NCBI GenBank assembly: GCA_024403185.1 | Contig: JAKSSG010000004.1 | Location: 1-62,403 of the forward strand | Length of the DNA stretch: 62,403 bases | Source: Clostridia bacterium | GTDB taxonomy: Bacteria > Bacillota > Clostridia > Peptostreptococcales > Anaerovoracaceae | Reading direction: 5' to 3' | Part shown: one piece after another, positions 10,281-60,682 of the stretch | How the letters are laid out: every line of letters begins with the position of its first letter | Numbering within the stretch: position 1 is the stretch's first letter | Notes under the pieces: model-generated | What the model was told of the DNA's origin: nothing | Seen by the model: only the letters and a program-made list of their open reading frames with translations | Databases searched by the model: none | Program-made: the position numbers and the translations under genes

Positions 10281-10320
10281 AATAAAACAAAAGACCCGCA
10301 GATTTCAATGTCTGCGGGTC
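10281..10320 (-). terminator. Terminator of the 14-gene operon
   Basis: A 10-bp GC-rich stem (GACCCGCAGA with TCTGCGGGTC), an 8-nt loop and TTTTGTTTTATT on the minus strand, 24 nt after the stop of the racemase gene. This closes the operon that begins at 24104. Confidence 0.92.
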
Positions 10321-10344
10321 CATAACATGCAGGTCTTTGCCTGT

Positions 10345-11070
10345 CTAACCTCTCTTTATCTCGCTTATTGCTGCGTCGAGCGGATCATATATCTTTTTTT
10401 CAATCTGATCTTTTCTGTCACCCAGAGCTGCGTACATTATCGGCAGTTCCGTGCATCCGAGAATTACACCGTCATTCGGTACATTATTTACGTAGTCTAT
10501 GAAGGACTGCTTTATCTCGTCCGTAATGTTCTTCTGCTTTATGGCTTCAATGAAATCCCTGAGTATTGAGAAATCCTCTTCGCCCGGAGCATCACAGCTG
10601 ATTCCGTACTTTTCGAACGTCTTCTCGTAAATCTTTGAAAGAATCGTTCCCTCCGTGGCCAGCAGGAAAACGCTTTCCCTGTTGTCGTCCTTTATCGCTC
10701 TGGCGCATGCTTCTATTATGTTCACAACCTTGTCCTCCGCTTCCGGAACGTTTTCAAGAACCTCCGGAAGGAAACAGTGTGAGGTATTGCATGCCAGAAC
10801 AATCCTGGTGGCTCCCATGTCCAGAAGGCCCTTAACAGATGAAGTCAGTTCCTCCACAAGAAGTTCATAGTTCTCATTGTATAGAAGCGCCCTGACTCTG
10901 CTCGGCATGGTACACTTGTTGTCAATTATTATTCTTGGTCGTTCCCATTCCTTTTCTGCAGGAAATGAATCAAGGACACGTTCAAAAAAGCTTGATGTTG
11001 CATATGAACCCATTCCTCCAACAATTCCAATAACATAATCGTCCATTTTGTTTGCCATAATATCTGCCAT
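10345..11070 (-). CDS. Aspartate/glutamate racemase family protein
   Basis: 241 residues. The two catalytic cysteines of cofactor-independent Asp/Glu racemases are present: Cys94 in VLACNTSHCF and Cys206 in VILGCTELP, and the N-terminal GIVGGMGSYATSSFF motif is typical. The enzyme would make a D-amino acid, most likely D-Asp or D-Glu. It is the last gene of the acyl/LicD operon, 31 nt after licD, with an AGGAGG RBS. Its place there suggests that the D-amino acid is used in a polymer substituent rather than in general peptidoglycan synthesis, but this is inference. Members of this group without proven racemase activity are also known. Confidence 0.85.
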   Translation of the reverse strand: MADIMANKMDDYVIGIVGGMGSYATSSFFERVLDSFPAEKEWERPRIIIDNKCTMPSRVRALLYNENYELLVEELTSSVKGLLDMGATRIVLACNTSHCFLPEVLENVPEAEDKVVNIIEACARAIKDDNRESVFLLATEGTILSKIYEKTFEKYGISCDAPGEEDFSILRDFIEAIKQKNITDEIKQSFIDYVNNVPNDGVILGCTELPIMYAALGDRKDQIEKKIYDPLDAAISEIKRG

Positions 11071-11101
11071 ATCTGACCTCCTGATATTTTATCTACATGA
11101 A

Positions 11102-12754
11102 TTAATCTGCAATTTCTTCATCACCTTCTATGTCTTCACTGTCATCCTTGCAGAGACCTTCAACGTGCTTTAAGGCTCTGGTTATTCCCATACCGGCCAG
11201 ATCCATGAGTATCAGCCCGTTTGTCGTGTTTACCGCTGCCTTTTCATACATGCTTAAGGCAGTAGCTTCATCACCGCATCCCCTGAAGGCATCGCCGTAG
11301 TATTTTAACAGATCCCCATCGTCCGGATACAATTCAAGCATGCTTTCAATGTATTTCTTTACATTTTCAAATTCCTCCGGGGAATCCGCAAAATGCAGGT
11401 CTGACTGAATCTTTCCTCTTACGAATGACAGCTGGGTGTTTCCTTCATATGCTTTTACTGTTTCAGCAGCCTTCTCGTATTCGCCCAGGTCAAGACTCTT
11501 CATCATTTCTGTGATATCACTGCAGAAAGTCATTGCCTCCTGCTGATGTTCGTTCAGACTGCCCTTTGCATCCTGTCTGATTACCAGCATCTGATGGAGC
11601 TTTGAAATCTGATTGTTTGCAATGCACACATCGCAAAGCAGATCCGCATTGTCATCCTCGAGAGGAACGAACTTGTTGTTTCTGTAAAACGGAAGTTCCA
11701 GCTGCAGGGCCATGTATTCCCTGAACAGCTGCTTCCCTTCTGCAGGATTGCTGACGAAGTAGTCTGCTCCATGAGCCTTGACTTCCTTCGTGATCTTGCA
11801 GTTCAGGTAACGGATGTAAGGTTTTGCCCTGTCATAATACACTTCCTGCTTCAGCTTGAAGTAATTGAGTCTTTCCTTCTTGTAAGCCCTGTTTATCTTT
11901 CTTACTTCGTCAATGTCCAGAATGCTCAGAGTCTCTCTCTCACAGTTTCCCGAATCAAGTTCGTTAAGCTGCAATGTAGTGTGCCCTGTTCTGATGTCCA
12001 TGTCCGGAATGTATCTCCAGTCCAGACCGTAATTTTCAAAAGCACACAGTTCTGCCTTCTCTGCTATGTAGAAGGATTTGTCCTCAAACGGAACATCTCT
12101 CGGTGTACCATACCAGTCAATAGGAGATACTCCAAGCCACACGGACCCAAATCTCATGCAGTAGTTGTCCGCATCCTTTTCATCAATGGTAAAGAGCTTG
12201 TTTTCCAGTTCTTCCAGAACGGCTTCTTTTCCCACTTCAGCTACCTTCTGCATGTACATGTTGTATCTGTCGTAATCAATCCATTCCCAGCTTGAGTTTC
12301 TTGCTGCATTTATCAGTGTATCCTCGAGCACTTCGCAGTACACGTAGTGATTCTTCTTCCACTCAGTCAGTTCCGGTTCTTCCCTTGGCATCGGATCAAG
12401 AATTACTATGTCCAGATAAACACCGTGAGGCGCTCCGTCCGTCATCCTTACCTTCGGGATGCATGTGGATTCCCTGTTTACAAATCTTGATATCGGCGAG
12501 GTGTAGTTCGGATATCTCTTGTGGCTGACAAGCTCTTCTCCCTCTTTGAGTTCCTGGTCAACTATCGCTTCAAGCTTCAGATACTCTTTTCTCGGTATTC
12601 TGATATCGGCATCATCATCCCATGGAATAAAGCCCTTATGCCTCAGAGCTCCCAGATTGGTGCCCCCGCTAAGGTAATATTTAATATCGTGTTTTCTGCA
12701 GATTTCATCGAAATCGCACATTAACTTATACAGTGAACTTTGTAGACCTTCCAT
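11102..12754 (-). CDS. LicD-family phospho-substituent transferase with TPR-like tail
   Basis: 550 residues. The N-terminal LicD domain shows the full signature: KYYLSGGTNLGALRHKG followed by FIPWDDDADIRIP, where the Asp residues bind metal and nucleotide. LicD proteins transfer phosphocholine or other phospho-alditols from a CDP-linked donor to cell-surface sugars. The C-terminal third (about 400-540) is helical with TPR-like repeats (DLLKYYGDAFRGCGDEATAL) and may bind partners. The start overlaps the end of the upstream LicD-like gene by 29 nt; a later Met (CDFDEICRKHD) is possible. A donor could come from the nucleotidyltransferase-aminotransferase fusion in the same operon. The family call is firm, the substrate is not known. 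Confidence 0.9.
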   Translation of the reverse strand: MEGLQSSLYKLMCDFDEICRKHDIKYYLSGGTNLGALRHKGFIPWDDDADIRIPRKEYLKLEAIVDQELKEGEELVSHKRYPNYTSPISRFVNRESTCIPKVRMTDGAPHGVYLDIVILDPMPREEPELTEWKKNHYVYCEVLEDTLINAARNSSWEWIDYDRYNMYMQKVAEVGKEAVLEELENKLFTIDEKDADNYCMRFGSVWLGVSPIDWYGTPRDVPFEDKSFYIAEKAELCAFENYGLDWRYIPDMDIRTGHTTLQLNELDSGNCERETLSILDIDEVRKINRAYKKERLNYFKLKQEVYYDRAKPYIRYLNCKITKEVKAHGADYFVSNPAEGKQLFREYMALQLELPFYRNNKFVPLEDDNADLLCDVCIANNQISKLHQMLVIRQDAKGSLNEHQQEAMTFCSDITEMMKSLDLGEYEKAAETVKAYEGNTQLSFVRGKIQSDLHFADSPEEFENVKKYIESMLELYPDDGDLLKYYGDAFRGCGDEATALSMYEKAAVNTTNGLILMDLAGMGITRALKHVEGLCKDDSEDIEGDEEIAD

Positions 12755-13958
12755 CCGTATCTCCCATTATTGTTCTAAGTTTATTTCCCTTGTAATCGTA
12801 TACAACTATTCCCTTCCTGTACTTTTCAGGGACTTCATTAAATACTTTCTCAAGGTTTACTGAATAGCGTTCTTCCAGGATTCTGTTGATCTCCGGGCAG
12901 AGATAGATGTTCCTGTATTTCATGAGCACGCCGATATACGGCAGCATCAGCTCATCAAGCTCATCGTATCTGCCGTTTTCATGCATCTCGACAATTTCTT
13001 CAATTCTGCCTTCGAATTTCAGACCGTAGACATAACGCCAGTAGCTTCTGAACAGTGTGTCAACGGTACTCAGCTTTTCCTTTTTTATAGCACGCTCGTA
13101 CTTGCTCTGATTTCTTAATCTGCGCACAATGTCTCTCATTGATTCCCTGAAATCATCCAGGTGCAGTTCCGCATACGGCATGTCTGTGTCATAGAAGTCG
13201 TGCTGCGTGTTCGGGCTTTCAACCTCAGACGCCTTCCTGAACTTCGCTCTGTTATAATTGTTCTCCAGCTCCAATGGAACCCAGAATTCTTTTCCTGACA
13301 AAGTTTCCTGGCAGCGTTCTGCGAAATACTCCTTGCTGAAGCCTCTCGTCACGCCCGGGTTTCTCCTTACCCAGTACCCGTTTCCTTCGGAAGCGGAGTG
13401 TTTCTTTATGAGATGTTCAAACAGTTCTTCTGCTGCAGCCTGTCTGCCTTTTTTTGCAATCTTCTTTTCAAGTTTTTTCCTGAACCATGGTTCCAGCTTT
13501 GCACCCGAACAGTTGGATCCGTATGCCAGATTGGTCCATGCCTGTTCCAGTGCCATCAGCATCTTCTGGTTGCTTCTCCTGGGTCTGATTACATTTATTG
13601 TTATTTCCATTCCCAGGTGCTCTTCTGTAGCAAGCTTCCTTCTGTTGTAATGAGTTGTGGTTTCATCACAGTAATTCAGATAGAAGCCGGAAAAGAACGG
13701 GCTGTTTCCCATGTATTCAATGGAGCGGTCCTTCTTTGGATCTTTATTGAATGCTTCGATGAACTTCTTCAGTTCCGGAGCACGCATCAGTATACGTCCG
13801 TTTCTGGTTCCGGCCGGCAGTTCATCATAATACACAGCTGCTGCTGCCAGTTTCCCGTCAAGAAAATACTCTATGTCATTTTCCTGACAGATGTCATGTA
13901 TTTCACTTAATAAATCGAAAATAACCTGTCGTTTTTCTCTCATTTTTTCTTCATCCAT
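12726..13958 (-). CDS. Degenerate LicD-like protein
   Basis: 410 residues. The N-terminus aligns with the downstream LicD protein (IHDICQENDIEYFLDGKLA against ICRKHDIKYYLSGGTNLG), but the metal-binding WDDDADI motif is replaced by GTRNGRILM. The rest keeps LicD-like features (GMEITINVIRPRRS). Loss of the Asp cluster suggests that it is not an active transferase; it may be a partner or scaffold of the active LicD. It overlaps both neighbours (19 nt upstream, 29 nt downstream), so the three genes are translationally coupled. Confidence 0.7.
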   Translation of the reverse strand: MDEEKMREKRQVIFDLLSEIHDICQENDIEYFLDGKLAAAAVYYDELPAGTRNGRILMRAPELKKFIEAFNKDPKKDRSIEYMGNSPFFSGFYLNYCDETTTHYNRRKLATEEHLGMEITINVIRPRRSNQKMLMALEQAWTNLAYGSNCSGAKLEPWFRKKLEKKIAKKGRQAAAEELFEHLIKKHSASEGNGYWVRRNPGVTRGFSKEYFAERCQETLSGKEFWVPLELENNYNRAKFRKASEVESPNTQHDFYDTDMPYAELHLDDFRESMRDIVRRLRNQSKYERAIKKEKLSTVDTLFRSYWRYVYGLKFEGRIEEIVEMHENGRYDELDELMLPYIGVLMKYRNIYLCPEINRILEERYSVNLEKVFNEVPEKYRKGIVVYDYKGNKLRTIMGDTDGRSTKFTV

Positions 13959-14737
13959 TTTCCTGTTTCGGCAACTATTTCATTTCTGACCTTTTTGAAT
14001 GTTTTCATTCTGCTAGGGTCTGAGATGTGGAAGAACTTTACCTTTCCTTCATCCCTTAAAGTTCTGTCGATTGCAACTCCCAGCGCAACACTGTAGAGCC
14101 TGTCGACATATTCCGGCAGTACAATAAGCCCTGAACCCATTGCAACGCCCTCTGCCTCGGCAAATGTGGCATCATGGGCAACAATCCTGTCACCATCGCG
14201 TATTATCCAGCTTCTGCCCATGCCGGTTCTCATTCTGTCAGCAAGCTGTGAAGCCAGTTTTTCTTCATTATACATTTTGCTCCACTGCTCGGAACTGCAC
14301 ATGAGTGCTGCAATTTCCGGTGCATCTTCAGGCTTCGCCAGTTCAACTTTATCCGCTGCGCTAACTTCCATGTCAGCCGTGGATCTTCCCTTGAACATCC
14401 ATCCGCCGCGTTTTTCATATGAATCACCCAGTTCATCTTCCAGGGCATCCAGCATGCTCATCTTGGCATTTACAGCCTGAATGTCATACTCTTTTACGAT
14501 TTCCATGAGCCCGGCCTTGTCCCAGTTGTCCTTGTGGCTGTAGATCTGAAGGGAATCCATGTATCTCATTACAACAAAGTTCAGCCCTTCTTCGTCCTCA
14601 TCATACCACAGATCAAGCTTTGGACTCTCTATGCCGTATACCATTACATCTATGTAGAGATATACGCATTCACCAAAATTCGGCCTGATATAATCTATTA
14701 TTCTTTTTACTTCAGCCTCGGTTTTTGCCTGTTTCAT
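13940..14737 (-). CDS. GNAT-like N-acyltransferase
   Basis: 265 residues. The C-terminal half resembles a GNAT fold: KVELAKPEDAPEIAALM is a typical first strand and helix, followed by SWIIRDGDRIVAHDATFAE and YVDRLYSVALGVAIDRTL where acyl-CoA binding is expected. The N-terminal 115 residues form a separate region without a recognised family. The gene follows the SDR by 23 nt. It could attach an acyl group, from CoA or from one of the operon's ACPs, to an amino sugar or amino alcohol. The substrate is inference. Confidence 0.6.
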   Translation of the reverse strand: MKQAKTEAEVKRIIDYIRPNFGECVYLYIDVMVYGIESPKLDLWYDEDEEGLNFVVMRYMDSLQIYSHKDNWDKAGLMEIVKEYDIQAVNAKMSMLDALEDELGDSYEKRGGWMFKGRSTADMEVSAADKVELAKPEDAPEIAALMCSSEQWSKMYNEEKLASQLADRMRTGMGRSWIIRDGDRIVAHDATFAEAEGVAMGSGLIVLPEYVDRLYSVALGVAIDRTLRDEGKVKFFHISDPSRMKTFKKVRNEIVAETGKWMKKK

Positions 14738-14760
14738 TTTTCACCTTTCGTAATGTAACA

Positions 14761-15504
14761 CTAACATTTCCTGTTCAGATGGCCGCCGTCAATTATATAT
14801 GTCTGTCCGGTAATCCATCTGCTCTTTTCAGATACGAGGAAACTGATGAGATTTGCAACATCCTGCGTTTCGCCCAGTCCAAATCTGTATCCCTCTTCGA
14901 GCTTTTCTCTCTGTTCCTGACTGATGCTGTCCATGTTCTTCTGAACCATTTCAGTCATTACCAGTCCGGGAGCAACCGCATTAATGCGAATTTTCTTTTC
15001 GGCAAGCTCCGGTGCTGCCGTAGTTACAAAGCCCTCATTGGCTGCCTTTGTAGAAGCATAAATGGTCTTGCCATACGCTCCTTCGTGGGCAGACAGCGAT
15101 GAAATCAGGACAACCGAGCTGTCTTCCGCAAACATCTTTTTTCTGACAAGTTCCTTGATGATCATTATTGGCGCGAAGGTGTTCAGCCCGAAAATGTCGG
15201 TCATTTTCTCCAGTTTGATTCTTCCGACAGATGTCGTATAATCCATACCTGCGCTGTGAACAAATGCGTGGACCTTCTCAACTTTTGCCTTTACCTTTTC
15301 AACGTAGTCTCCAATGGTTTCAACCTGTGAAAGATCCCACGGAATGATAATGCAGTTTTCATTATCTCCAAAGGACTGTCTGAGTTTTTCTTCGTTTCGT
15401 GAAGAAACAATTACACCATACCCCTCGTCAAGAAGAGTGTGTGCTGTTCTGTTTCCGATTCCACTGGAAGCCCCTGAAACAATTACCCATTTGCTAACCA
15501 TCAT
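14761..15504 (-). CDS. Short-chain dehydrogenase/reductase, FabG-like 3-oxoacyl-ACP reductase
   Basis: 247 residues, a classical SDR. The NAD(P) motif is GASSGIG (residues 11-17). The active site has Ser136/138 and Tyr149-x3-Lys153 (IYASTK). The C-terminal end reads WITGQTYIIDGG, as in FabG. The SSRNEEK segment after strand 2 fits NADPH preference. Its neighbours are an ACP (9 nt upstream), a KAS III and a malonyltransferase, so it probably reduces a 3-oxoacyl-ACP to a 3-hydroxyacyl-ACP. No dehydratase or enoyl reductase gene accompanies it. Confidence 0.85.
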   Translation of the reverse strand: MMVSKWVIVSGASSGIGNRTAHTLLDEGYGVIVSSRNEEKLRQSFGDNENCIIIPWDLSQVETIGDYVEKVKAKVEKVHAFVHSAGMDYTTSVGRIKLEKMTDIFGLNTFAPIMIIKELVRKKMFAEDSSVVLISSLSAHEGAYGKTIYASTKAANEGFVTTAAPELAEKKIRINAVAPGLVMTEMVQKNMDSISQEQREKLEEGYRFGLGETQDVANLISFLVSEKSRWITGQTYIIDGGHLNRKC

Positions 15505-15513
15505 ATCACCCTG

Positions 15514-15732
15514 TTATTTTCCTGTTGCCATGTTGTAAAGCTCTTCGATTGTGTCGCAGGCCAGGAATTCATCTACTGACAGACGCTTGTCGTATTCATC
15601 TTCAATAGTAAGGATGATTTCAAATCCCATCATTGATGAGAATTCTTCAACAACCTCTCTGAATCTTGAATCCTTTGTCAGTTCCACATCTTCATCATAA
15701 ACTTCCTTAATCAGTTCAATAAAATTATCCAT
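15514..15732 (-). CDS. Acyl carrier protein (small-pathway ACP)
   Basis: 72 residues, acidic and helical. The phosphopantetheine site is Ser33 in FSSMMGFE, a variant of the usual DSLxxVE; the following ILTIEDEYDKRLSVDEF matches ACP helix II-III. It lies between the KAS III gene (16 nt) and the SDR gene (9 nt), so it probably carries the acyl chain in that pathway. The serine and length are convincing; the flanking motif differs from housekeeping AcpP. Confidence 0.8.
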   Translation of the reverse strand: MDNFIELIKEVYDEDVELTKDSRFREVVEEFSSMMGFEIILTIEDEYDKRLSVDEFLACDTIEELYNMATGK

Positions 15733-15748
15733 TGCTATCCTCCTGTTT

Positions 15749-16807
15749 CTAAACTGTCATTTTGATACAGCATACATCGTCAACGTGTGTGGCAACTGCA
15801 TTCCAGTAAAGGCCGCCGCCAAAGCTTGACATTACCAGATTGGTATTGCTGAGCTTGTTCTCATCGTTCAGATCGTTCATGAGAAGTGAAATCGATGCGT
15901 TTGATGTATTGCCGTATTTTGTTATATTAATAGGGAATTTATCAGTACTTGACTTAGCCCTTTTAATAATCAGGTTTACCATGTACAGATTTGGCTGATG
16001 GAGCAGATAGTAATCAACATCATCTTCCTCCCAGCCGTGTTCTTTCCTGACCTCTTTCAGTATTCTCGGAACGGCTCTTGCTGCAAAATCAAATATGCTG
16101 TGGCCATCCATGTAATACTGGTCCATGCTCCTTCTGTTTCCGTATTCATCCTCTTTGACTATTGCCGTCTCCGGAGTCTTCGGATGTCTGAAACCGCTTG
16201 TAGGAAGAATCAGCTTCTCGTACTGGCTTCCGTCTGCGTACATTATTATTGTGGTAGGGTTTTCTTCTTCAGTGTATTCAAGAGCTACCGCTGCTCCCGC
16301 ATCACTGATCAGATATGCAAGACCGTAGTCCTGCTTTGAAGTCGTTCTGCGAACTGTGTTTCCCAGCAGAATAAGAACTCTCCTGCAGGCTCCCGTTTCA
16401 ATGAACTGGCTTCCCACTCCTATTGTATTTATGGATCCCGGACATCCCGAAGTAATGTCAATTGCTATGCAGTCGGTTGACAGTCCCAGCTTTCCCTGAA
16501 GAAAACATGCTGTTGCAGGAGTCGTGTAATCAGGTGTCTCCGTTGAGAAGATCAGTCCGTCAATGCTGTCCTTCTCCCAGCCGAGTTTCTCTATCAGAGC
16601 CTCGGCAACCGGGTAGCACAGATCCGCAGCGGTCTGATTGATATCAGCCTCATACAGATTGTTTATTCCCACATTGTTGTGCATTTTGTCAATTTTTTCT
16701 TTAGGAAAATAGTTGTCTTTGTCAACATCGTATATTGACATTTTGTTCTTTGGAAGTCCGCTTCCAACACCTACTATTTTCACATGGTTAGTTCTTATTA
16801 CCGGCAT
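15749..16807 (-). CDS. 3-oxoacyl-ACP synthase III (FabH-like)
   Basis: 352 residues with the full KAS III triad: Cys101 (ATACFLQG), His270 (YYLLHQPN) and Asn300 (YGNTSNAS). KAS III condenses an acyl-CoA starter with malonyl-ACP to give a 3-oxoacyl-ACP. The start overlaps the stop of fabD by one base (TAATG). The surrounding FabD, ACP and SDR suggest a dedicated short chain, for example acetoacetyl-ACP. Relatives of this subgroup also occur in secondary metabolism, and some act on other starters. Confidence 0.9.
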   Translation of the reverse strand: MPVIRTNHVKIVGVGSGLPKNKMSIYDVDKDNYFPKEKIDKMHNNVGINNLYEADINQTAADLCYPVAEALIEKLGWEKDSIDGLIFSTETPDYTTPATACFLQGKLGLSTDCIAIDITSGCPGSINTIGVGSQFIETGACRRVLILLGNTVRRTTSKQDYGLAYLISDAGAAVALEYTEEENPTTIIMYADGSQYEKLILPTSGFRHPKTPETAIVKEDEYGNRRSMDQYYMDGHSIFDFAARAVPRILKEVRKEHGWEEDDVDYYLLHQPNLYMVNLIIKRAKSSTDKFPINITKYGNTSNASISLLMNDLNDENKLSNTNLVMSSFGGGLYWNAVATHVDDVCCIKMTV

Positions 16808-17748
16808 TATTCTCTTCCTTTCATTATCTCTTTCAAGTCGTCTAAGTCCTGTATTTTTTCAACGCAGCAGGAAACATATTCCGCCTCATCCTTCAGTGTT
16901 TTATTGACATGCTTCATCAGAACCTGTCCCGGCCCTATTTCAATGAATGTATCAACACCGTCGTTATGAAGGTTTCTTATTGTCTGTTCCCACATTACCG
17001 GAGACATTGCCTGTCTGACAATTTTATCTTTAATCAGTTTGCTGTCCCTTTCCGCCTGTGCGTCTATGTTCATGTAAACGGGCACTTCGGTATCGTGAAT
17101 TTCCGTATTGTCAAATTCCTTTTTCAGAACATCAGTTACCGGCTCCATCATTTTACAGTGGAACGGGGCGCTGGTTCGGAGCGGTAAAGCTCTGACACCG
17201 TCAGCCTTTGCCAGCTTCCTGAACTGCTTTACTGCTGCCGCTTCACCTGATACAACTGTCTGGTTAGGGCAGTTCCAGTTTGCAGGTTCAACATAGCCGT
17301 CACATTTGCTGCAAAGTGATTCAATGTATTCTCTGTCGGAGCTTTCCAGTACAACCATGCCGCCTTCACCAACGGGCACGGCGTTCTGCATTGAATCAGC
17401 TCTTATCTGAACGATTCGGATTGCATCTTCAAATGAAATTCCGCCTGCAGCAACAAGTGCTGAATATTCTCCGAGAGAAAAGCCTGCAACGGCATCGAAG
17501 GAAATGCCTGCCTCTCTGAATGCCTCGAACATGGCGATTTCGCATGTAAGCATGCACGGCTGTGTGTTGTGTGTCAGGTCCAGTTCTTCATCTTCCCCGT
17601 TGAAACATACATCCGCAATTGATCTGCCCAGGATCCTTTCCGCTTCATCAAAGATCTCTTTTGATGAAGAAAGGCTGTCATGGAAATCCTTTGCCATTCC
17701 AACATACTGACTTCCCTGTCCGCTAAATAATAATGCTGTCTTTCCCAT
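16807..17748 (-). CDS. fabD: Malonyl-CoA:ACP transacylase
   Basis: 313 residues, the usual FabD length. N-terminal GQGSQYVGM, nucleophile Ser91 in GFSLGEYSA, a conserved Arg in QIRADSMQ, and His197 in APFHCKMM. It loads malonyl groups onto ACP. It is 8 nt after the fusion gene and coupled to the KAS III gene. It may be a pathway-specific copy; whether the genome has another fabD cannot be judged here. Confidence 0.93.
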   Translation of the reverse strand: MGKTALLFSGQGSQYVGMAKDFHDSLSSSKEIFDEAERILGRSIADVCFNGEDEELDLTHNTQPCMLTCEIAMFEAFREAGISFDAVAGFSLGEYSALVAAGGISFEDAIRIVQIRADSMQNAVPVGEGGMVVLESSDREYIESLCSKCDGYVEPANWNCPNQTVVSGEAAAVKQFRKLAKADGVRALPLRTSAPFHCKMMEPVTDVLKKEFDNTEIHDTEVPVYMNIDAQAERDSKLIKDKIVRQAMSPVMWEQTIRNLHNDGVDTFIEIGPGQVLMKHVNKTLKDEAEYVSCCVEKIQDLDDLKEIMKGRE

Positions 17749-17756
17749 TAAATATA

Positions 17757-19574
17757 CTATTCTCCCATTATTGTTTTAAGTGCTGCCACAAGTGCCTTGT
17801 TTTCTTCAGGCTTCTTGATGGCAACAGAGATAAATTCTCTCTTGTCATACATGTGCTTATGTGAAAGATCCTTTACGAAGATCTTGTATTCTTCAAGCAG
17901 CTCGTTTGTAATGTCCCTGGCCAGCTTTCCGTAAAGTATTTCAACCATTACGAAGTTACCCTGGGTCTCATATACCTTGATTCCACTGATCTTCTGAAGA
18001 TCTCCGATGAATTCATCCTTGGTTTCGTGGAAGGTCTGCATGGCTGCCTTGTATGCCTTCTTGTATTTTCCGACAATCTGCATGTAGCACTCGGCAATTG
18101 AGTTAATGTTCCAGATTGCCACGTCGTTCTTGATGTCAACTATCAGCTTTTCATCAGATGAAGCAAGAATTCCAAGTCTGAGCCCCGGAACACCGTGCGC
18201 CTTGGAAATGCTCCTTATGATGATCAGATTAGGATACTCTGCTATTACGTCGTGATCCAGCAGAAGGTTGTCCTCCTCATCTGCATATACACTGAATGTA
18301 TCGTCAAGAATCAGTCTGATGTTCTTTCCCTTTGCCCAGTCGAGCAGCTTTATCATGTCTGCCTTTGGAATGTAGTTTCCTGTAGGGTAATCCGGATTGC
18401 AAATAACCAGACCGTCAACGGCATTCTCATTGAAGAATTCAATCAGGTCATCGGCGGAATATCTGAAGCCTTCCTCTTCCGGCTTGAATACCACATGTTC
18501 CTTTTCCTGATATCTCTTCAGGTATTCCTCGAATGACGGATTAATGAATCCAAGCTTTCCGTCAATCTTTTCCATCAGCGACTTGATGAGTTCGGATGCT
18601 CCGTTGCCGATTACAATCTGCTCCTGCTTGATGTCATAGAGCTTTGATGCAAGCAGTGTATTGATAGTCATTCCCGACGGATATGATGTTACCAGCTTTT
18701 CAACGTTTGCCTTGATTTCCTCCAGCAGCTTCTGGTTAGGGAAGTGCGGGTGGTTGAGATAGCAGAAGTCCAGCATCTTAGGATATCTCCAGTATCCTCC
18801 GTATCTTCTTCTCAGAAGCTGTCCCTTCTTTTCCTTCTCCGGTGTGAACAGAACCGATGCAATATCCAGGTCCTGAAGGTCATCTACTTCGTACCACAGG
18901 TCGCCGTCCAGTCTCATCCCCTTGATTGTTGATTCATCCAGCATTGTAATCATGCCGAGAACCGCTTCATAATATTCATTGAGACCGAGAGCGCTCTGAT
19001 ATGCATCGAGGAAAGGTACGTAATGTGTTACTGAAAATTCCTTTCCGAACTTGTAAATGTTAACGGTCTTGAATACTTCGTCCGCATCCTTGAAGTCAAA
19101 CTTCTTTCCCGGAATGAACTGTACAATGTCATCGCTTTCATTCAGCTTGACAACAGTTCCGTCCATCCAGCTTTCATACTTGTCAACTACAGCAAGTGTA
19201 TCTCTTGGATCATCAACCAGCTTCTGAAGGACGCTGTCTTCAAAGATCAGGTCTGATTCGAGAAGAAGCGTATCATCCTCCAGCATGTAATCCTTGGCCA
19301 GAGCCAGTGAATAGATGTTGTTGGTCTTGTCGTATACCGGGTTGTCCACATATTCAACTTTTGTGCTTATTCCCAGATCCTCGATGTAATCAATCAGCTG
19401 CTGACCTCTGTAGCCGACAACCACTATGATTTTTTCCAGGCCGAGATTGTCAAGCTGACTCATCATTCTGTCGATGAGTCCAACGCCATTAACCTTTACC
19501 ATGCATTTTGTGTTGTACTGAGTTAATGATTTAAGTCTGCTTCCCATTCCGGCAGCTAAGATAATTGCTTGCAT
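17757..19574 (-). CDS. Nucleotidyltransferase-aminotransferase fusion
   Basis: 605 residues, two enzymes in one chain. Residues 1 to about 235 are a LicC-like nucleotidyltransferase: LAAGMGSRLKSLTQYNTKCM and VVVGYRGQQL are the NTP-binding segments, and ESDLIFED carries the metal Asp. Residues about 255-605 are a class I/II PLP enzyme with the lysine near 455 in SISKAHGVPGLRLG and VICNPDYPTGN upstream, close to histidinol-phosphate aminotransferase and CobD-type decarboxylases. Fusions of this kind are known from activation of aminoethylphosphonate, where a CTP transferase is joined to a transaminase. Here it may make a CDP-activated phospho- or phosphono-amino alcohol for LicD. No PEP mutase or phosphonopyruvate decarboxylase gene is in the window. 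Confidence 0.85.
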   Translation of the reverse strand: MQAIILAAGMGSRLKSLTQYNTKCMVKVNGVGLIDRMMSQLDNLGLEKIIVVVGYRGQQLIDYIEDLGISTKVEYVDNPVYDKTNNIYSLALAKDYMLEDDTLLLESDLIFEDSVLQKLVDDPRDTLAVVDKYESWMDGTVVKLNESDDIVQFIPGKKFDFKDADEVFKTVNIYKFGKEFSVTHYVPFLDAYQSALGLNEYYEAVLGMITMLDESTIKGMRLDGDLWYEVDDLQDLDIASVLFTPEKEKKGQLLRRRYGGYWRYPKMLDFCYLNHPHFPNQKLLEEIKANVEKLVTSYPSGMTINTLLASKLYDIKQEQIVIGNGASELIKSLMEKIDGKLGFINPSFEEYLKRYQEKEHVVFKPEEEGFRYSADDLIEFFNENAVDGLVICNPDYPTGNYIPKADMIKLLDWAKGKNIRLILDDTFSVYADEEDNLLLDHDVIAEYPNLIIIRSISKAHGVPGLRLGILASSDEKLIVDIKNDVAIWNINSIAECYMQIVGKYKKAYKAAMQTFHETKDEFIGDLQKISGIKVYETQGNFVMVEILYGKLARDITNELLEEYKIFVKDLSHKHMYDKREFISVAIKKPEENKALVAALKTIMGE

Positions 19575-19637
19575 TTTTACACTCCTTCTTAATAATAATA
19601 CACTGTTAAAACTTTTCTCTTTTCCGGATATCAGTCA

Positions 19638-20381
19638 TCATTTCCTGCTGTTGCATTTCTTGAATATTCTGATGCCCTCTTCAATATCGCCATCATGAAT
19701 TATTGTTCCGTTATCGATTACAATTACTCTGTCGGCGGCCTTTCTTATGTATTTCGGTCTGTTTGAAATAAGAAGTGCCGTAACATCCCTGTTTTCATCC
19801 AGATATTTTTCCACTCTCTCCATGCATTTTTCAGCGACATAGTTTCCGCCGCCGCCAAACATGTCGTCAATGACGAGGACATCCGTTTCGACATTAAGCC
19901 CGACTTCCAGCGACACGAGTGCCGGGGAGCCCTTTGGCGCTCTCTTCATCGGCAGATCTGCAAATGATTCAATCTCAGCAAACTGAAGTATTTCGTCGAC
20001 GTGGGGTTCGATATCCTTTCTGCTGATTCCGACAGCGTTGGCCCTGCAGAAAATGTTTTCCCTGCATGTGAATTCCATATCCATTCCTGCCTTTGCATCA
20101 ATCATCACGTTTTTTCTGCCCCTTACGCGAACCTTCCCTGAGGATGGCCCGGTTATGCCTGCTATGATTTTTGCCAGAGTGCTGCGCCCTGAATCAACGA
20201 CTCCCATGAGAGCGACACGTTCACCGTCCGCTATCTCCAGTGACACTTCATTAAGCGCATATTTGATTTCGGCCGGTTCTCTGCCGAACATGACGCCCTT
20301 GATTCTTTCTATATTCTTGCTGTAGACATTGAATCGCTTTGATACATTATCCAGTTTTATTGCTGATTTCTTTTCACTCAT
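19638..20381 (-). CDS. TagH/KpsT-like ABC transporter ATPase with degenerate motifs
   Basis: 247 residues, similar in order to polysaccharide-export ATPases (KRFNVYSKNIERIKGVMF, then LNEVSLEIADGERVALMG). Key motifs are altered. Walker A reads GVVDSGRST, with Gly to Asp and the essential Lys to Arg; the signature region reads KGSPALVSLEVG; Walker B reads DVLVIDDMF, with Asp in place of the catalytic Glu. The C-terminal H-loop region reads VTALLISNRPKYIRKAAD, with no His. It follows its permease gene by 7 nt. It may hydrolyse ATP poorly or act with a second ATPase. The family call is firm; activity is doubtful. Confidence 0.85.
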   Translation of the reverse strand: MSEKKSAIKLDNVSKRFNVYSKNIERIKGVMFGREPAEIKYALNEVSLEIADGERVALMGVVDSGRSTLAKIIAGITGPSSGKVRVRGRKNVMIDAKAGMDMEFTCRENIFCRANAVGISRKDIEPHVDEILQFAEIESFADLPMKRAPKGSPALVSLEVGLNVETDVLVIDDMFGGGGNYVAEKCMERVEKYLDENRDVTALLISNRPKYIRKAADRVIVIDNGTIIHDGDIEEGIRIFKKCNSRK

Positions 20382-20388
20382 ATTATTC

Positions 20389-21198
20389 CTAAATTATATC
20401 CGGCAGCCTTTTAATAAGCTTCTTGTACAGAAGAACGGATACGGCCGCCATGATTACAAGCACAATCAGGAAACATCCCAGCTTAAGCGGTTCCTCCCAG
20501 AACCATATGTGCCTGCAGAATGCATTTCTGTATCCCTCAACGATGTATGTTATCGGATTGAACAGGAATACGGTCTTGATGGTTGGGTTCAGACTGTTTA
20601 CGTCAAACAGTATGGCCGAAAGCCAGAATACCATCTGGTTTATTACCTGCAGGAAATTGTAAAAGTCCCTGTAGATAATGGATATTATCCCGGTTCCTAT
20701 GCTCCAGAAAACTGACATTATCAGCATCAGCAGCATGTAGAACAGAGTCTGAATCCAGTAAATGCTCGGCCAGGTCTGGAAGATGAAGCATACGATTATC
20801 CCCAGTACCAGCATGCCGAAATGTATTGTCAGATACGAAAGAGAAACCGAGGTCGGCAATGTGCTGATCGGATAGTTTGTCTTGGAAACCAGCGGTGCGT
20901 ACTTCTTTAAGCAGTTTGCCCCGTTCAGAATCATGTCGCGCATGTAGAAAAATGATATCATTCCTATCGTGAGCCACACGAAATAAGGGCACTCCAGGCC
21001 CGGAACCTCCTTGGCGGCTCTGAAACCGATGGTAATGGCAACATAAAATACCACAATGTACATGCATGGCTTGGCAAACATCCAGAGCAGTCCCATGTCC
21101 GATCCTCGAAACTGCTTCCTCTGATGCATCTTCGCCAGTTCCAGCATCTGTCCTCTATGTTCAATATTCTCTTTTATAATGTTAATCAGAGTATTCAT
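20389..21198 (-). CDS. TagG/KpsM-like ABC-2 permease, polysaccharide export
   Basis: 269 residues with six predicted membrane helices. The N-terminal amphipathic stretch QFRGSDMGLLWMFAKP and the C-terminal LFNPITYIVEGYRNA are hallmarks of ABC-2 exporters for teichoic acid and O-antigen. It would move a lipid-linked polymer across the membrane together with the ATPase encoded 7 nt downstream. The MBOAT gene ends 5 nt upstream. No other polymer exporter of the ABC type is in the window, so it could serve the glycerol-phosphate polymer too; that is inference. Confidence 0.9.
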   Translation of the reverse strand: MNTLINIIKENIEHRGQMLELAKMHQRKQFRGSDMGLLWMFAKPCMYIVVFYVAITIGFRAAKEVPGLECPYFVWLTIGMISFFYMRDMILNGANCLKKYAPLVSKTNYPISTLPTSVSLSYLTIHFGMLVLGIIVCFIFQTWPSIYWIQTLFYMLLMLIMSVFWSIGTGIISIIYRDFYNFLQVINQMVFWLSAILFDVNSLNPTIKTVFLFNPITYIVEGYRNAFCRHIWFWEEPLKLGCFLIVLVIMAAVSVLLYKKLIKRLPDII

Positions 21199-21203
21199 CT
21201 TCT

Positions 21204-22796
21204 CTAAAATCCCCTGTAAATAAATGCCGCAGCATCATATCCCGGGCCGTAGATTCCAAGGCTCAGTATCAGTGCAAAAGCAGCCAGCAGAATTGCCCAT
21301 CTCAGCGGAAGCGGCTTTTCATCCAGCATCTGCCTGAAGCCTTTGTTTCCGTCTCCTCCGTTTAACCTCATGTCCTTTTCCTGAATCAGGCTGACCGCAA
21401 ACCATATGATGCAGCACACGAGTATGATCAGGAAGTCAGCACCTGTCAGTCCCAGACTCATTACTGTTTCACTGAAAGGCACCCCGTGGTTCAGCCTGAA
21501 CATTGAGAAGAACATGCTGATTGCCACTCCGAAGGACGCCGCCTTCGGGAAAATTCTTCCGCAAACGACGATGAAGAATGTACGTATGATCTGGAAGAGC
21601 TTCCACGCCTTTGATTCGGCTTTGATGTGAAGCTTCTCCATGGCCGCCTTCAGAAGCGGCTCGCACAGGAGTCCCAGAACTATGACGGTACCGTTATACA
21701 GACCATATGCCACATACTTGAACTCTGCCCCGTGCCATAAACCGATGGTAATGAATGTGCAGTACTGTGCAACTATTACCGGGAACAGTTTGCCGATGCG
21801 GTCGCCGAAGACGTTTCTCAGGCTTTTTCCCAGCTTGCCGAAGAACTTGGACATCGCCACCGGATAGAAAATGTAATCTCTGCACCAGTGAGACAATGAA
21901 ATGTGCCATCTGTTCCAGAACTCGGACAGGTTATGGGAGAAATAAGGTCTCATGAAGTTATGAGTCATTTCTATTCCCATGCACTGCGCCACACCTCTGG
22001 CAATATCTATTCCGCCGCTGAAGTCCGCGTATATCTGTATTGTGTAGAACAGCAGTGCCACAAATACTGCTCCACCTGTATATTCTGTGTAATTGTCAAA
22101 TACCTCGCTGCAGAGTATTGCAACTCTGTCAGCTATTACGAGTTTCTTGAAGAAGCCCCAGAGAATGAGCTGTGCTCCTCGTGTCAGATTGCTGTAGTCA
22201 AATCTGTGACCCTCATAAAGCTGATGCGCCAGCTGATCGTGTCTCGAAATCGGACCCTGAATTATCTGAGGGAAGAATGCGGTAAACAGTGCAAATTTGG
22301 CAATGTTTCTGTCCGGCTCAATCTTGTTTCTGTACAGGTCAAATATGTATGCCGCCGACTGAAATGTGTAGAATGATATTCCAAGCGGAATCAGCAGTTC
22401 GCCTGCGTCGAAGATTCCCGCAGCCTGAAGGTAATATCTGAAATACTTCAGTACCGCCAGCACTCCGAAATTCAGAATCAGAATCAGAGCAACCATCTTT
22501 CTCTTCCTGCTCTGGGAGGCTGCCTTTGCGGCTTTCTTCTCTTCTCTGGACATCTCTGCCTTGTGCTCGTCCATGTATGCCTTATGTCCCGCATTGCAGT
22601 TTCCGATATAGAGCCCGCCGAGATATGTAATTACCGTTGTAAGCAGCACGAACACGAAGGTCTTCGGGCTGGATATAAGGTAAAAGGCATAGCTGGCTGC
22701 AAGCAGAACAACCCATCTGAAATTAACAGGAATAATGTAATACAGAATTACGGTTGCAAGCGCAAATATTAAAAAATTCAGAGATGTAAACGCCAT
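21204..22796 (-). CDS. MBOAT O-acyltransferase with C-terminal acyl-shuttle motif
   Basis: 530 residues, 11 or more membrane helices. The MBOAT catalytic His is in TIGLWHGAEFKY (about residue 354); the conserved FFPQIIQGPISR and WNRWHISLSHWCRDY segments fit the DltB/AlgI branch. It accepts a cytoplasmic acyl thioester and passes the acyl group outward. The last six residues are FIYRGF, matching the hexapeptide whose Tyr carries the acyl group in Dlt-type systems (known from work on DltX and fused MBOATs). An ACP gene lies 25 nt upstream, the likely donor. Closely related to the MBOAT at 31540-33087. The acyl group is unknown. Confidence 0.92.
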   Translation of the reverse strand: MAFTSLNFLIFALATVILYYIIPVNFRWVVLLAASYAFYLISSPKTFVFVLLTTVITYLGGLYIGNCNAGHKAYMDEHKAEMSREEKKAAKAASQSRKRKMVALILILNFGVLAVLKYFRYYLQAAGIFDAGELLIPLGISFYTFQSAAYIFDLYRNKIEPDRNIAKFALFTAFFPQIIQGPISRHDQLAHQLYEGHRFDYSNLTRGAQLILWGFFKKLVIADRVAILCSEVFDNYTEYTGGAVFVALLFYTIQIYADFSGGIDIARGVAQCMGIEMTHNFMRPYFSHNLSEFWNRWHISLSHWCRDYIFYPVAMSKFFGKLGKSLRNVFGDRIGKLFPVIVAQYCTFITIGLWHGAEFKYVAYGLYNGTVIVLGLLCEPLLKAAMEKLHIKAESKAWKLFQIIRTFFIVVCGRIFPKAASFGVAISMFFSMFRLNHGVPFSETVMSLGLTGADFLIILVCCIIWFAVSLIQEKDMRLNGGDGNKGFRQMLDEKPLPLRWAILLAAFALILSLGIYGPGYDAAAFIYRGF

Positions 22797-22821
22797 TTAG
22801 GTATTTGCCTCTTTTCGTTAT

Positions 22822-23049
22822 TTATTCCTGAGCTGTTTCAATGAGCTTTACCATTGCGTCAACTGAATTGAAGTTTTCCGGAACCAGGTCCTCAACTGAT
22901 ATTTCAACGTCAAATTCATCATTGAATTCTCCAACGATTGCAACGATGTCCAGTGATGCCAGAATGTTGTCATCGATCAGCTTTGTTTCGTTTTCAAAAT
23001 CAATGTCTCCTCTGATTTCCGTAAGTATTTCCAGTACTGTTTCTCTCAT
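22822..23049 (-). CDS. Acyl carrier protein, DltC-like partner of MBOAT
   Basis: 75 residues from the ATG preceded by AAGGAG; the frame is open upstream but that part overlaps rmlB. The attachment Ser32 sits in ILASLDIVAIVGEF, close to the DSLxxVE motif, and FDVEISVEDLVPENF matches ACP helix II-III. It lies between rmlB (17 nt) and the MBOAT gene, the same arrangement as carrier and MBOAT in dlt operons. It differs clearly from the second ACP at 15514-15732, so the operon has two carriers, perhaps one for synthesis and one for transfer. Confidence 0.88.
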   Translation of the reverse strand: MRETVLEILTEIRGDIDFENETKLIDDNILASLDIVAIVGEFNDEFDVEISVEDLVPENFNSVDAMVKLIETAQE

Positions 23050-23066
23050 TTCATGTCTCCTTGTGT

Positions 23067-24104
23067 TTATCTGTTTGAATACATCTTTTCGTAATATTCC
23101 TGATACTCGCCGCTGATGATGTTCTTCCACCAGCTTTCATTTTCCAGGTACCAGTCGATTGTCTGTCTTATTCCGTCCTTGAACATTGTCGTCGGAAGCC
23201 AGCCCAGTTCATCGTGAATCTTTGTCGGATCAATTGCATATCTCAGGTCATGACCCTTTCTGTCTCCGACAAATGTAATGAGGCTTTCAGGTTTGCCGAC
23301 CTGTTCCAGAATGATCTTTACCACATCCAGATTTGATTTCTCATTGTGGCCGCCAATGTTGTAAACTTCTCCGACCTTTCCTTCATGGATTATAAGGTCG
23401 ATTGCTCTGCAGTGATCTTCCACATAGAGCCAGTCACGAACGTTTTCCCCTGTGCCGTATACCGGAAGATCCTTGTCCGCCAGAGCGTTGGCAATCATGA
23501 GCGGGATAAGCTTTTCCGGGAACTGATAAGGTCCGTAGTTGTTTGAACATCTGCTGATGCTTACCGGCAGGCCGAATGTCCTGTGATAGGCCATTACCAG
23601 AAGATCAGCCGAAGCCTTTGAAGCCGAATAAGGGCTTGATGCCGTTATCGGCATGTCCTCGGTAAAGAACAGGTCCGGTCTGTCCAGCGGAAGGTCGCCG
23701 TAGACTTCATCTGTTCCAACCTGGTGGTATCTGTCTATGCCGAATTCGTTGCAGGCATCCATGAGCACCTGGGTTCCCAGAATGTTTGTCTTCAGGAAAA
23801 TTCCAGGGTCTTCTATGGATCTGTCCACATGGGATTCTGCCGCGAAATTCACAACGATGTTAAACGGTACACCCTTTTCCGCTTCCTCTCTGAAAAGCCC
23901 GAACACCGCGTCTCTGTCGGCAACATCTCCCTTTACGAATCTGAATTTAGGGTTGTCCATTACCGGTGCCAGAGTCTCAAGGTTTCCCGCATATGTCAGA
24001 TTGTCAAGACATACAATGTCGTAATCCGGATGCTCGTCCAGCATGTAAAATACGAAATTTGCACCTATGAATCCGGCTCCGCCCGTAACTAGTATTTTCA
24101 TCAT
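23067..24104 (-). CDS. rfbB: dTDP-glucose 4,6-dehydratase
   Basis: 345 residues. An extended SDR with the NAD motif GGAGFIGANF, the family-specific LDNLTYAGNLETL, the catalytic GTDEVYGDL (Thr-Asp-Glu) and Tyr-x3-Lys in SPYSASK, and RCSNNYGPYQFPEKL. It makes dTDP-4-keto-6-deoxyglucose. The partner RmlA is encoded at 52901-53764 with a WecE-like transaminase; rmlC and rmlD are absent from the window, which argues against dTDP-rhamnose as the only product. It is the first gene of the 14-gene operon, with a GAGGT RBS and two possible Met starts in tandem. Confidence 0.95.
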   Translation of the reverse strand: MMKILVTGGAGFIGANFVFYMLDEHPDYDIVCLDNLTYAGNLETLAPVMDNPKFRFVKGDVADRDAVFGLFREEAEKGVPFNIVVNFAAESHVDRSIEDPGIFLKTNILGTQVLMDACNEFGIDRYHQVGTDEVYGDLPLDRPDLFFTEDMPITASSPYSASKASADLLVMAYHRTFGLPVSISRCSNNYGPYQFPEKLIPLMIANALADKDLPVYGTGENVRDWLYVEDHCRAIDLIIHEGKVGEVYNIGGHNEKSNLDVVKIILEQVGKPESLITFVGDRKGHDLRYAIDPTKIHDELGWLPTTMFKDGIRQTIDWYLENESWWKNIISGEYQEYYEKMYSNR

Positions 24105-28507: not shown

Positions 28508-28525
28508 ATTAAGCTTCCTCGTGTT

Positions 28526-49158: not shown

Positions 49159-49175
49159 TTTTAAAGAAGGATGTT

Positions 49176-54907: not shown

Positions 54908-54930
54908 CTGTTTCTCCTGAATCTTTACTT

Positions 54931-60606: not shown

Positions 60607-60682
60607 GGGGCACTAGCTCAATGGATAGAGTACCAGACTTCGAATCTGTTGGTTCTGGGTTCGAGTCCCAGGTGCCTCGCCA
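60607..60682 (+). tRNA. tRNA-Arg (anticodon TCG), CCA encoded
   Basis: A complete cloverleaf. The acceptor GGGGCAC pairs with GTGCCTC, the D stem is GCTC/GAGT, the anticodon loop is CTTCGAA with anticodon TCG at 60640-60642, and the T arm is CTGGG-TTCGAGT-CCCAG. The discriminator is G and CCA is encoded. One pair at the end of the anticodon stem is mismatched. It reads CGN-type arginine codons. A terminator follows directly. Confidence 0.93.

Follow-up and report, generated by a model that had tools for sequence, protein, structure and literature searches.

What does a bacterium build with an operon in which genes for acyl-chain assembly, a nucleotidyltransferase joined to a pyridoxal-phosphate (PLP) enzyme and two LicD-like genes follow one another? 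The question is raised by 14 co-directional open reading frames (ORFs) that run head to tail, from 24104 to 10345, on the minus strand of a 62,403-nucleotide stretch from a Clostridia bacterium of the Anaerovoracaceae (contig JAKSSG010000004.1), hereafter called the window (Table 1). A preliminary description of this DNA proposed that the operon makes an acyl group on an acyl carrier protein (ACP) and a phospho-amino group linked to cytidine diphosphate (CDP), and puts both on a sugar polymer exported by an ABC transporter pair. We rather favor, tentatively and with a probability of about 0.38, a serotype-like operon that would decorate a teichoic-acid-like polymer. A 3-hydroxyacyl group carried by the second carrier protein (ACP2) and a CDP-activated amino alcohol would be joined by a GNAT (Gcn5-related N-acetyltransferase) protein and transferred by a pair of LicD proteins, the acyl group and the aminoalkyl phosphate ending as one composite substituent. 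The gene families, the intact or lost motifs, the linkage and the LicD pairing are read directly from the sequence, from which we infer all substrates, the reaction order and the coupling of the acyl group to the amine.

An acyl cassette, probably for a single round

FabD, a β-ketoacyl-ACP synthase III (KAS III), ACP2 and a short-chain dehydrogenase/reductase (SDR) are encoded by consecutive genes. The roles of the active-site residues are well established in the KAS III, FabD and SDR families, and alignment (for FabD, with housekeeping copies) shows that the Cys-His-Asn of KAS III, the Ser/Arg/His of FabD and the Ser-Tyr-Lys of the SDR are all intact. A second, housekeeping FabD is present elsewhere in the genome (G000:C67), and KAS III is the sole match at 1e-10 in this genome, whose 1.56 Mb assembly is 87% complete. 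FabD would load malonate onto ACP2, KAS III would condense malonyl-ACP2 with an acyl-CoA starter and the SDR would reduce the product. Because the operon contains one KAS and one reductase, with no dehydratase or further KAS, the simplest product would be the 3-hydroxyacyl-ACP2 of one round, i.e. 3-hydroxybutyryl-ACP2 if the starter is acetyl. Judged by its genes, the set is a ketide cassette of the type described for the wfp genes of Flavobacterium psychrophilum, namely an ACP, a KAS and a ketoreductase with intact active sites beside a predicted N-acyltransferase. The earlier idea of an acyl group built on an ACP fits these four genes, with predicted substrates.

As a side observation, 42 of 49 genomes of the genus gave no KAS III (FabH) match at 1e-10, yet 41 of the 49 gave a FabD match; many of these genomes are incomplete. 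Fatty acid synthesis in the genus may begin without FabH.

A GNAT that appears to have changed its donor

The GNAT has no Pfam or NCBIfam match, and a PDB search returned chance-level matches only. A search of the class (391 genomes) and one of the genus (49 genomes) yielded 18 distinct GNATs, whose neighborhoods were viewed as far as the contigs reach. A carrier-protein gene lies within 13 kb of six of them: those of the window, G181, G183 (3 bases away) and G706 (26 bases), and two in G189. All six have lost the R-x-x-G-x-[GAS] acetyl-CoA loop, where the window protein reads VDRLYS and the WecD-type R/Q-x-x-G-x-G/A is absent. Where the available stretch shows no carrier protein, 11 of 12 GNATs keep the loop, the exception being G251 (Fisher p 0.0004). 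The carrier protein alone tracks with the loss of the loop; a link to acyl ligases was discarded, as G733, G683 and G699 keep the loop with a ligase 8-10 bases away and no carrier protein in the stretch. We infer that the loss of the loop may reflect a switch from an acyl-CoA to an acyl-ACP donor. In our proposal, the GNAT would move the acyl group from ACP2 onto the amine of the CDP-amino alcohol.

After six GNATs with ordinary surroundings had been set aside by judgement (G251, G733, G506, G600, G683 and G699), 12 remained with LicD, PLP-enzyme, ACP or glycan neighbors. Among these, a LicD-family gene is found in the stretch of 8 (adjacent in 5) and an amine-forming PLP gene in 6 (adjacent in 5). 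In G149 the order is cytidylyltransferase, aminotransferase, GNAT, LicD and pseudo-LicD; in G183, the fusion described below is followed by GNAT, carrier protein, acyl ligase and SDR. The contigs of G706 and G188 measure 6.2 and 4.4 kb and the G506 gene lies at a contig end, so that linkage is partly visible there.

Two further arrangements were seen around GNATs. At L184:3259-5887, L253:749-3410 and L254:6022-8662, a loop-intact GNAT overlaps or abuts an acyl ligase of 605-610 aa among genes that are otherwise of housekeeping type; in these three related genomes, the two may form a ligase/N-acyltransferase pair. In G189 (L209:983-10596 and 14349-15224), a GNAT/ACP/acyl-ligase cluster stands beside a flagellin-like gene (named by reading), as if the same type of acylation served flagellar glycosylation.

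The nucleotidyltransferase-PLP enzyme fusion

The best PDB match of the PLP half of the fusion (NT-AT) is 6oux (about 340 residues aligned, E 3e-38), a threonine-phosphate-decarboxylase-like protein that we take to be SMUL_1544 of Sulfurospirillum; the NT half matches LicC (1jyk) and PntC (6pd1). At least 533 relatives were found, of which the best 80 loci (L079-L158), ranked by likeness to the window query, were kept. Record titles among these best 80 of 533 range from Lachnospiraceae to Akkermansia, Bacteroides and Treponemataceae. NT-AT belongs to this widespread family, whose members look like a LicC-type cytidylyltransferase fused to a phosphoserine decarboxylase. By this resemblance, the family prototype would turn phosphoserine into ethanolamine phosphate and then into CDP-ethanolamine, and NT-AT of the window would make a CDP-activated amino alcohol. 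Of the 39 fully flanked loci, 17 have LicD within 10 kb of NT-AT, the 38 of 77 loci lacking 8 kb on both sides being left aside; over all 77 loci the number is 27. Both figures are given without a background rate.

The phospho-amino group could also have been a phosphonate, activated as the cytidine monophosphate ester of 2-aminoethylphosphonate (AEP). This reading is discarded: the phosphoenolpyruvate (PEP) mutase model TIGR02320 found no match in any of six genomes, including the 87% complete G000, in a search that gave a signal, below the cut-off, in 6 of 14 control genomes. The PLP half is of the PF00155 type and has no class V AEP transaminase domain.

Neighbor families of the NT-AT loci were built by label propagation and are fragmented, the counts being lower bounds, and ten were named from exemplars. 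They include at least 23 of 80 loci with an opine dehydrogenase family member, 17 with a CDP-glycerol-type polymerase, 13 with an ornithine-cyclodeaminase-like protein and 13 with a membrane sulfatase-fold protein. The opine-dehydrogenase-like and ornithine-cyclodeaminase-like neighbors suggest that some relatives may make N-carboxyalkylated amino-alcohol phosphates.

LicD and its inactive-looking partner

Many bacteria decorate their surface polymers by means of LicD proteins, which are usually presented as enzymes that act singly. The window encodes two. One scores over the PF04991 cut-off and carries the R-H-x-GFIPWDDD motif, in agreement with a transfer from a CDP donor, as proposed earlier, onto a predicted substrate. 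The other, termed here pseudo-LicD, has no Pfam match and lacks this motif, and our own LicD hidden Markov model (HMM) identifies it as a distant LicD homologue (E 3e-13 in a set of 19 sequences).

Stand-alone pseudo-LicDs were defined as ORFs of at least 300 aa that score above 90 bits with a pseudo-LicD HMM and have no W-D-D-D motif. Twenty were found in 15 genomes, and all 20 lie directly beside a motif-bearing LicD. Twelve of them had built the HMM and the other eight had not; the loci had been collected with pseudo-LicD, KAS III or GNAT as the query. The count includes a G093 pair behind an overlapping frame and leaves out a 116-aa fragment of G743, a duplicate copy (L066) and a cut copy (L063); two LicD neighbors truncated at a stretch end carry the motif in the extended sequence. 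In addition, an N-terminal motif-bearing LicD is fused to a C-terminal pseudo-LicD in G178, G153 and G363 (129-154 bits) and in G183 (66 bits). Five LicDs (L075, L076, L248, L250 and L182) have neither a pseudo-LicD neighbor nor a fused partner in these stretches.

All 20 pairs belong to the window's own family, for which alone the LicD pair is claimed. A class-wide feature was considered and rejected: the search matched 49 of 391 genomes, mostly with frames of ordinary LicD size. Two of these matches were examined, G032, a member of the same family with two pairs, and G743 (another family), where an 873-aa LicD stands beside the fragment mentioned above, which scores 37 bits.

Adjacency and fusion suggest that LicD and pseudo-LicD may work as one enzyme, and the polymer would receive the N-acylated aminoalkyl phosphate from this pair. 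What had been called a degenerate LicD is better described as a conserved partner than as a product of decay.

Conservation of the locus in relatives

In G181, from the same genus, rmlB is followed by one frame without a Pfam match, ACP1 and MBOAT (a membrane-bound O-acyltransferase), and then by an exchanged middle: two ATP-grasp genes, ACP, AMP-forming ligase, SDR (28%), ACP, KAS III (28%), a 263-aa protein and a metallo-hydrolase. The far flank again holds GNAT, pseudo-LicD (34%), LicD (50%) and racemase. The flanks are kept and the middle is swapped, as in serotype loci. G183 contains within 20 kb NT-AT, GNAT (34%), a carrier protein, a ligase, an SDR, a second GNAT, LicD, pseudo-LicD, LicD, ACP, KAS III, LicD and pseudo-LicD.

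KAS III matches at 1e-10 occur in 7 of the 49 genus genomes. Those of the window, G181 and G183 sit in LicD/GNAT-type loci; those of G171, G173 and G189 sit in fatty-acid-type clusters beside FabD and SDR, and G162 has a partial match beside FabD. The non-housekeeping KAS III loci of G181 and G183 also hold ACP, SDR and MBOAT. FabD is in the locus in the window only, being on other contigs in G181 and G183. The concern that FabD, KAS, ACP and SDR might be scattered and unlinked to LicD and MBOAT thus holds in part for FabD and not for the other three, and the exact 14-gene set was seen in the window alone among the genomes examined.

Weighing the proposal

The proposal is supported by the complete one-cycle cassette with its active sites intact, by the contrast between carrier-linked and other GNATs at the acetyl-CoA loop, by the LicD and amine-forming PLP genes near GNATs, above all in G149, by the LicD genes near NT-AT in the fully flanked loci, by the lack of a PEP mutase in the six genomes and by the precedents of F. 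psychrophilum wfpC-G and Campylobacter jejuni Cj1436.

Several observations weigh against it. ACP2 lacks the Asp that usually precedes the phosphopantetheine Ser. The six carrier-linked GNATs form one clade (support 0.946, in a tree of 16 of the 18 proteins, G683 and G699 being outside), so that the loop was possibly lost in one evolutionary event. When the 80 NT-AT loci were searched with the window proteins as seeds, KAS III, FabD and ACP2 had no match, GNAT and SDR matched in one locus (L090, which is G183) and ACP1 in one (L145). The acyl line is thus rarely seen with NT-AT, these counts being lower bounds, as the carrier protein of L090 was missed by the seeded search; GNAT as a generic partner of NT-AT was dropped, only L090 having it.

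NT-AT of the window is itself unusual. It was compared within a set of 78 sequences including the window and G134, from which members outside 540-680 aa were excluded, as were three of the 80 loci (L119, L122 and L126) without a picked fusion ORF. It deviates at 18 of the 181 columns with at least 95% conservation, the family median being 2. Thirteen of these changes fall in the PLP half, including N275H, N396Y, E425D, S426T, D429V, F430Y and R583S, and this half is the longest branch of the 78, the NT half ranking third. Of 77 relatives, 76 keep Arg583, presumably a contact of the substrate carboxylate, and all 77 keep Asn275 and Asn396; the window has Ser, His and Tyr at these three positions. 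Since the window copy departs so far from its family, a changed substrate is probable, or the PLP half is failing. The CDP-linked phospho-amino group of the preliminary description fits the family, with the loss of this near-invariant Arg speaking against it in the window copy.

The acceptor of the GNAT is the main uncertainty of our explanation. G181 keeps the GNAT, with no NT-AT or other amine-forming PLP gene seen beside it, and has WecE over the cut-off, which favors 4-amino-4,6-dideoxygalactose (Fuc4N) as the acceptor. One could therefore imagine that the GNAT is an analogue of WecD, which is itself a GNAT, and N-acylates dTDP-Fuc4N (from RmlA, RmlB and WecE) with the ACP2 acyl group. NT-AT and LicD would then add a separate amino-alkyl phosphate, and the outcome would be two independent substituents plus the MBOAT acyl group. 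We regard this as quite possible. The window has a high-scoring WecE, which RmlB probably feeds, and no RmlC match was found in G000 (87% complete) or G181. G181 contains RmlA (78%), RmlB (82%), WecE (462 bits) and the GNAT without NT-AT, and the GNAT of G188 adjoins an 83% identical rmlB as well as an aminotransferase. In the wfp precedent, too, the proposed acceptor of the acyl group is a 4-amino sugar (PMC6519341). On the other hand, WecE is over the cut-off in 32 of the 49 genus genomes and the GNAT is present in 9, of which 6 have WecE. As this share is about the background rate, GNAT and WecE do not track, and a tie between them was rejected. Moreover, the GNAT occurs without a WecE over the cut-off in G155 and G189, and the WecE of G188 is only a fragment at a contig edge. 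Given how widely WecE occurs, wall polymers of the genus may often contain Fuc4N; in the window, RmlB and WecE would supply it for the polymer and the racemase would supply a D-amino acid.

The version given by the preliminary description, in which the KAS product would be used by MBOAT for O-acylation, LicD would add the phospho-amino group and the ABC pair would export the polymer, appears improbable to us, although these genes share one operon and an MBOAT with a carrier protein forms an acylation pair. The MBOAT of the window comes with a conserved carrier of its own, ACP1, and persists in G178, where KAS III has no match. Both MBOAT and ACP1 best match Dlt models (DltB and DltC), below the cut-offs, and would perform a separate DltB/DltC-like O-acylation outside the membrane. 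No AMP-binding protein that could be a DltA-like ligase is among the 14 genes, and a PaaK-like gene lies at 54931. The ABC ATPase, whose frame is open, reads GVVDSGRST at Walker A (Lys lost), has no signature motif and shows Asp for the catalytic Glu and Asn for the H-loop His, whereas four relatives, in G181, G363, G175 and G357, are canonical. Rescue by a second TagH-like ATPase was considered, and none close was found in its own incomplete genome (the next match reaching only E 5e-9 at 24% identity). It is therefore doubtful that the ABC pair exports the polymer, and the window has a Wzx-like ORF as a candidate alternative. Of the preliminary interpretation, the acyl group on ACP, the CDP phospho-amino group and the LicD transfer thus fit, and neither the ABC export nor the use of the KAS product by MBOAT finds support.

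Equally improbable in our view is that the central genes of the operon were imported as a cassette or are decaying, the ATPase and the PLP domain losing function and the products not being made in this strain. The lost ATPase motifs and the deviating columns of NT-AT would agree with this. However, all 14 ORFs are open and tightly spaced, the KAS, FabD and SDR motifs are intact and the GC content is 0.449, vs 0.457 for the window. Only 5 of the 18 near-invariant changes fall in the NT half, and Lys458, Asp424, Asn393 and Arg466, which we take to be the PLP-binding core and which are each at least 95% conserved in the 77 relatives, are kept. Finally, a chance grouping of the 14 genes, to which the uniqueness of the exact set and the presence of a full-length NT-AT in just 4 of 148 sampled family genomes (its own included) could point, is very hard to believe, because the same kinds of genes stand together in G181 and G183 and G181 keeps both flanks around a middle that again holds SDR, ACP and KAS III.

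Organization of the operon and its surroundings

The 14 ORFs, their order and their family names, as first described, were confirmed by the ORF list and by Pfam/NCBIfam, except that GNAT and pseudo-LicD, which match no library model, were placed by alignment and by our own HMM. From 5' to 3', the spacings are 11, 25, 5, 7, 63, 8, -1, 16, 9, 23, -19, -29 and 31 bases. The start of ACP1 was set at the ATG at 23055, the mechanical ORF opening upstream at a GTG within rmlB. This tight spacing agrees with the preliminary description. Its single promoter and single terminator are plausible, and the site counts are not above chance in the window (31 promoters vs 26.5 expected; 14 terminators vs 13.4). 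An Rfam scan of the window found one tRNA and nothing inside the operon, and a PADLOC scan gave just one weak match, to the ABC ATPase.

Table 1. Features of the operon, of the surrounding locus and of related loci. Positions refer to the window unless a locus number is given; percentages are identities to relatives.
Feature	Position	Strand	Evidence
rmlB, dTDP-glucose 4,6-dehydratase	23067..24104	-	TIGR01181 477 bits (cut-off 365); 82% in G181
ACP1, carrier protein beside MBOAT (DltC-like)	22822..23055	-	PF00550; DltC model 34 bits (below cut-off 68); 87% in G181
MBOAT O-acyltransferase, DltB-like	21204..22796	-	PF03062 45 bits (cut-off 27); TIGR04091 DltB 166 bits (below cut-off 375); 75% in G181, G178
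ABC-2 permease, polysaccharide-export type	20389..21198	-	PF01061 (ABC2_membrane); 37-41% to relatives in LicD/TagF loci
TagH-like ABC ATPase, catalytic motifs degenerate	19638..20381	-	ABC_tran; TagH model NF010066 129 bits (below cut-off 320)
NT-AT, nucleotidyltransferase + PLP enzyme fusion	17757..19574	-	PF12804/PF00483 (NTP_transferase) + PF00155 (Aminotran_1_2); CobD TIGR01140 141 bits (below cut-off 291)
FabD, malonyl-CoA:ACP transacylase	16807..17748	-	Acyl_transf_1; TIGR00128 285 bits (cut-off 261)
KAS III (FabH-like)	15749..16807	-	PF08545/PF08541; Cys-His-Asn triad intact
ACP2, predicted carrier of KAS product	15514..15732	-	PF00550 32 bits (cut-off 20.8)
SDR, ketoreductase-like	14761..15504	-	PF13561; FabG-type models below cut-off; Ser-Tyr-Lys intact
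GNAT, predicted acyl-ACP-dependent N-acyltransferase	13940..14737	-	alignment with relatives keeping the GNAT loop; 68% in G181
Pseudo-LicD, LicD superfamily without R-H-x-GFIPWDDD	12726..13958	-	own LicD HMM 40 bits
LicD phosphotransferase, motif intact, C-terminal TPR-like extension	11102..12754	-	PF04991 128 bits (cut-off 22.6); CTPR and FKRP matches
Asp/Glu-type racemase (Asp_Glu_race)	10345..11070	-	TIGR00035 125 bits (cut-off 93); both catalytic Cys read in sequence; 71% in G181
Terminator-like hairpin directly after racemase	10292..10321	-	sequence scan
Second terminator-like hairpin, before rmlB	24234-24207		
Membrane-anchored DltD/AlgJ-like protein, possible MBOAT partner	7753..8904	-	no Pfam/NCBIfam match; 67% in G181; name by reading
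Wzx-like flippase, candidate alternative export route	50391..51686	-	no NCBIfam match; 58% in G181; name by reading
RmlA	52901..53764	-	TIGR01207 467 bits (cut-off 361)
WecE-type transaminase, predicted to form dTDP-Fuc4N from RmlB product	53780..55003	-	TIGR02379 636 bits (cut-off 435)
Four TagF-like and two LytR-CpsA-Psr-like ORFs of the surrounding locus			names by reading of sequence
LicD/pseudo-LicD fusions	L078:8287-11610, L214:8444-11767, L215:5254-8094, L065:8998-11499		

The operon is embedded in a larger teichoic-acid-like locus, which also holds a second MBOAT, and a tRNA gene stands at the edge of this glycan locus (60607-60679, plus strand). Two pairs of GT2 and ATP-grasp genes, one of them with EamA-like genes and a DegT-like gene, are found at 25640-29485 and 48226-50378. 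By gene content, they look like a cassette for the modification of an undecaprenyl-linked glycan. The DegT-like, GT2 and ATP-grasp genes are 67-85% identical in G183.

Comparison with known systems

A 4-amino sugar in the O-antigen of F. psychrophilum is proposed to acquire 3,5-dihydroxyhexanoyl through the action of two KAS, a reductase, an acyltransferase and a dedicated ACP (PMC6519341). The wfpC-G genes thus share with the window an ACP, a KAS, a ketoreductase and an N-acyltransferase within a glycan cluster, and a short hydroxyacyl amide is proposed there; they differ by two KAS, a PglD-type acyltransferase and a lipopolysaccharide setting, where the operon of the window combines a single KAS III and a FabD of its own with a GNAT and a LicD pathway. 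In the Lic-1 system (PMC10434233), a phospho-alcohol activated with CTP by LicC is moved to teichoic acid by LicD, a scheme that the window would share; in the window the nucleotidyltransferase is fused to a PLP enzyme and LicD has a pseudo-LicD partner. The PntC-AEPT fusions also join a cytidylyltransferase to a PLP enzyme for surface tailoring (PMC6697681), whereas the PLP domain of the window is of class I/II and CobD-like, not class V, and the six genomes gave no PEP mutase match. Cj1436 of C. jejuni is an L-serine phosphate decarboxylase (PMC11800397) and is likened to the window protein by its described activity. The PLP domain of the window aligns with 6oux, and it has lost the Arg (R583S) and other residues that 6oux and the family keep.

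Like the Dlt system of D-alanylation, the window has an MBOAT beside its carrier; unlike it, the pair scores below the model cut-offs and no DltA-like ligase is among the 14 genes. With the WecD/WecE pathway of the enterobacterial common antigen the window shares WecE over the cut-off, but its GNAT has no acetyl-CoA loop and sits with LicD. In the open-access literature we found no description of a LicD with a pseudoenzyme partner, of such an N-acylated substituent or LicD pair, or of a LicD with an ACP, ketide or cytidylyltransferase set like this operon.

Significance

Loci for polymer decoration are known as a kind, and what would be new here are the LicD/pseudo-LicD enzyme and the ACP-linked GNAT. 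In its most specific form, our proposal would be a two-subunit LicD, made of an active protein and an obligate pseudo-LicD. It would transfer an aminoalkyl phosphate that has been N-acylated by a GNAT switched from acyl-CoA to acyl-ACP, the acyl group coming from the one-cycle KAS III/FabD/ACP/ketoreductase line of the same operon; taken as a whole, this form is somewhat unlikely. A recurring, sometimes fused, inactive LicD partner nevertheless offers a concrete two-protein system for reconstitution. Should the GNAT indeed couple a CDP-amino alcohol to an acyl group made on the spot, this would amount to a new class of wall decoration, predictable from gene content, and such a prediction would reach a family of mostly uncultured anaerobes.

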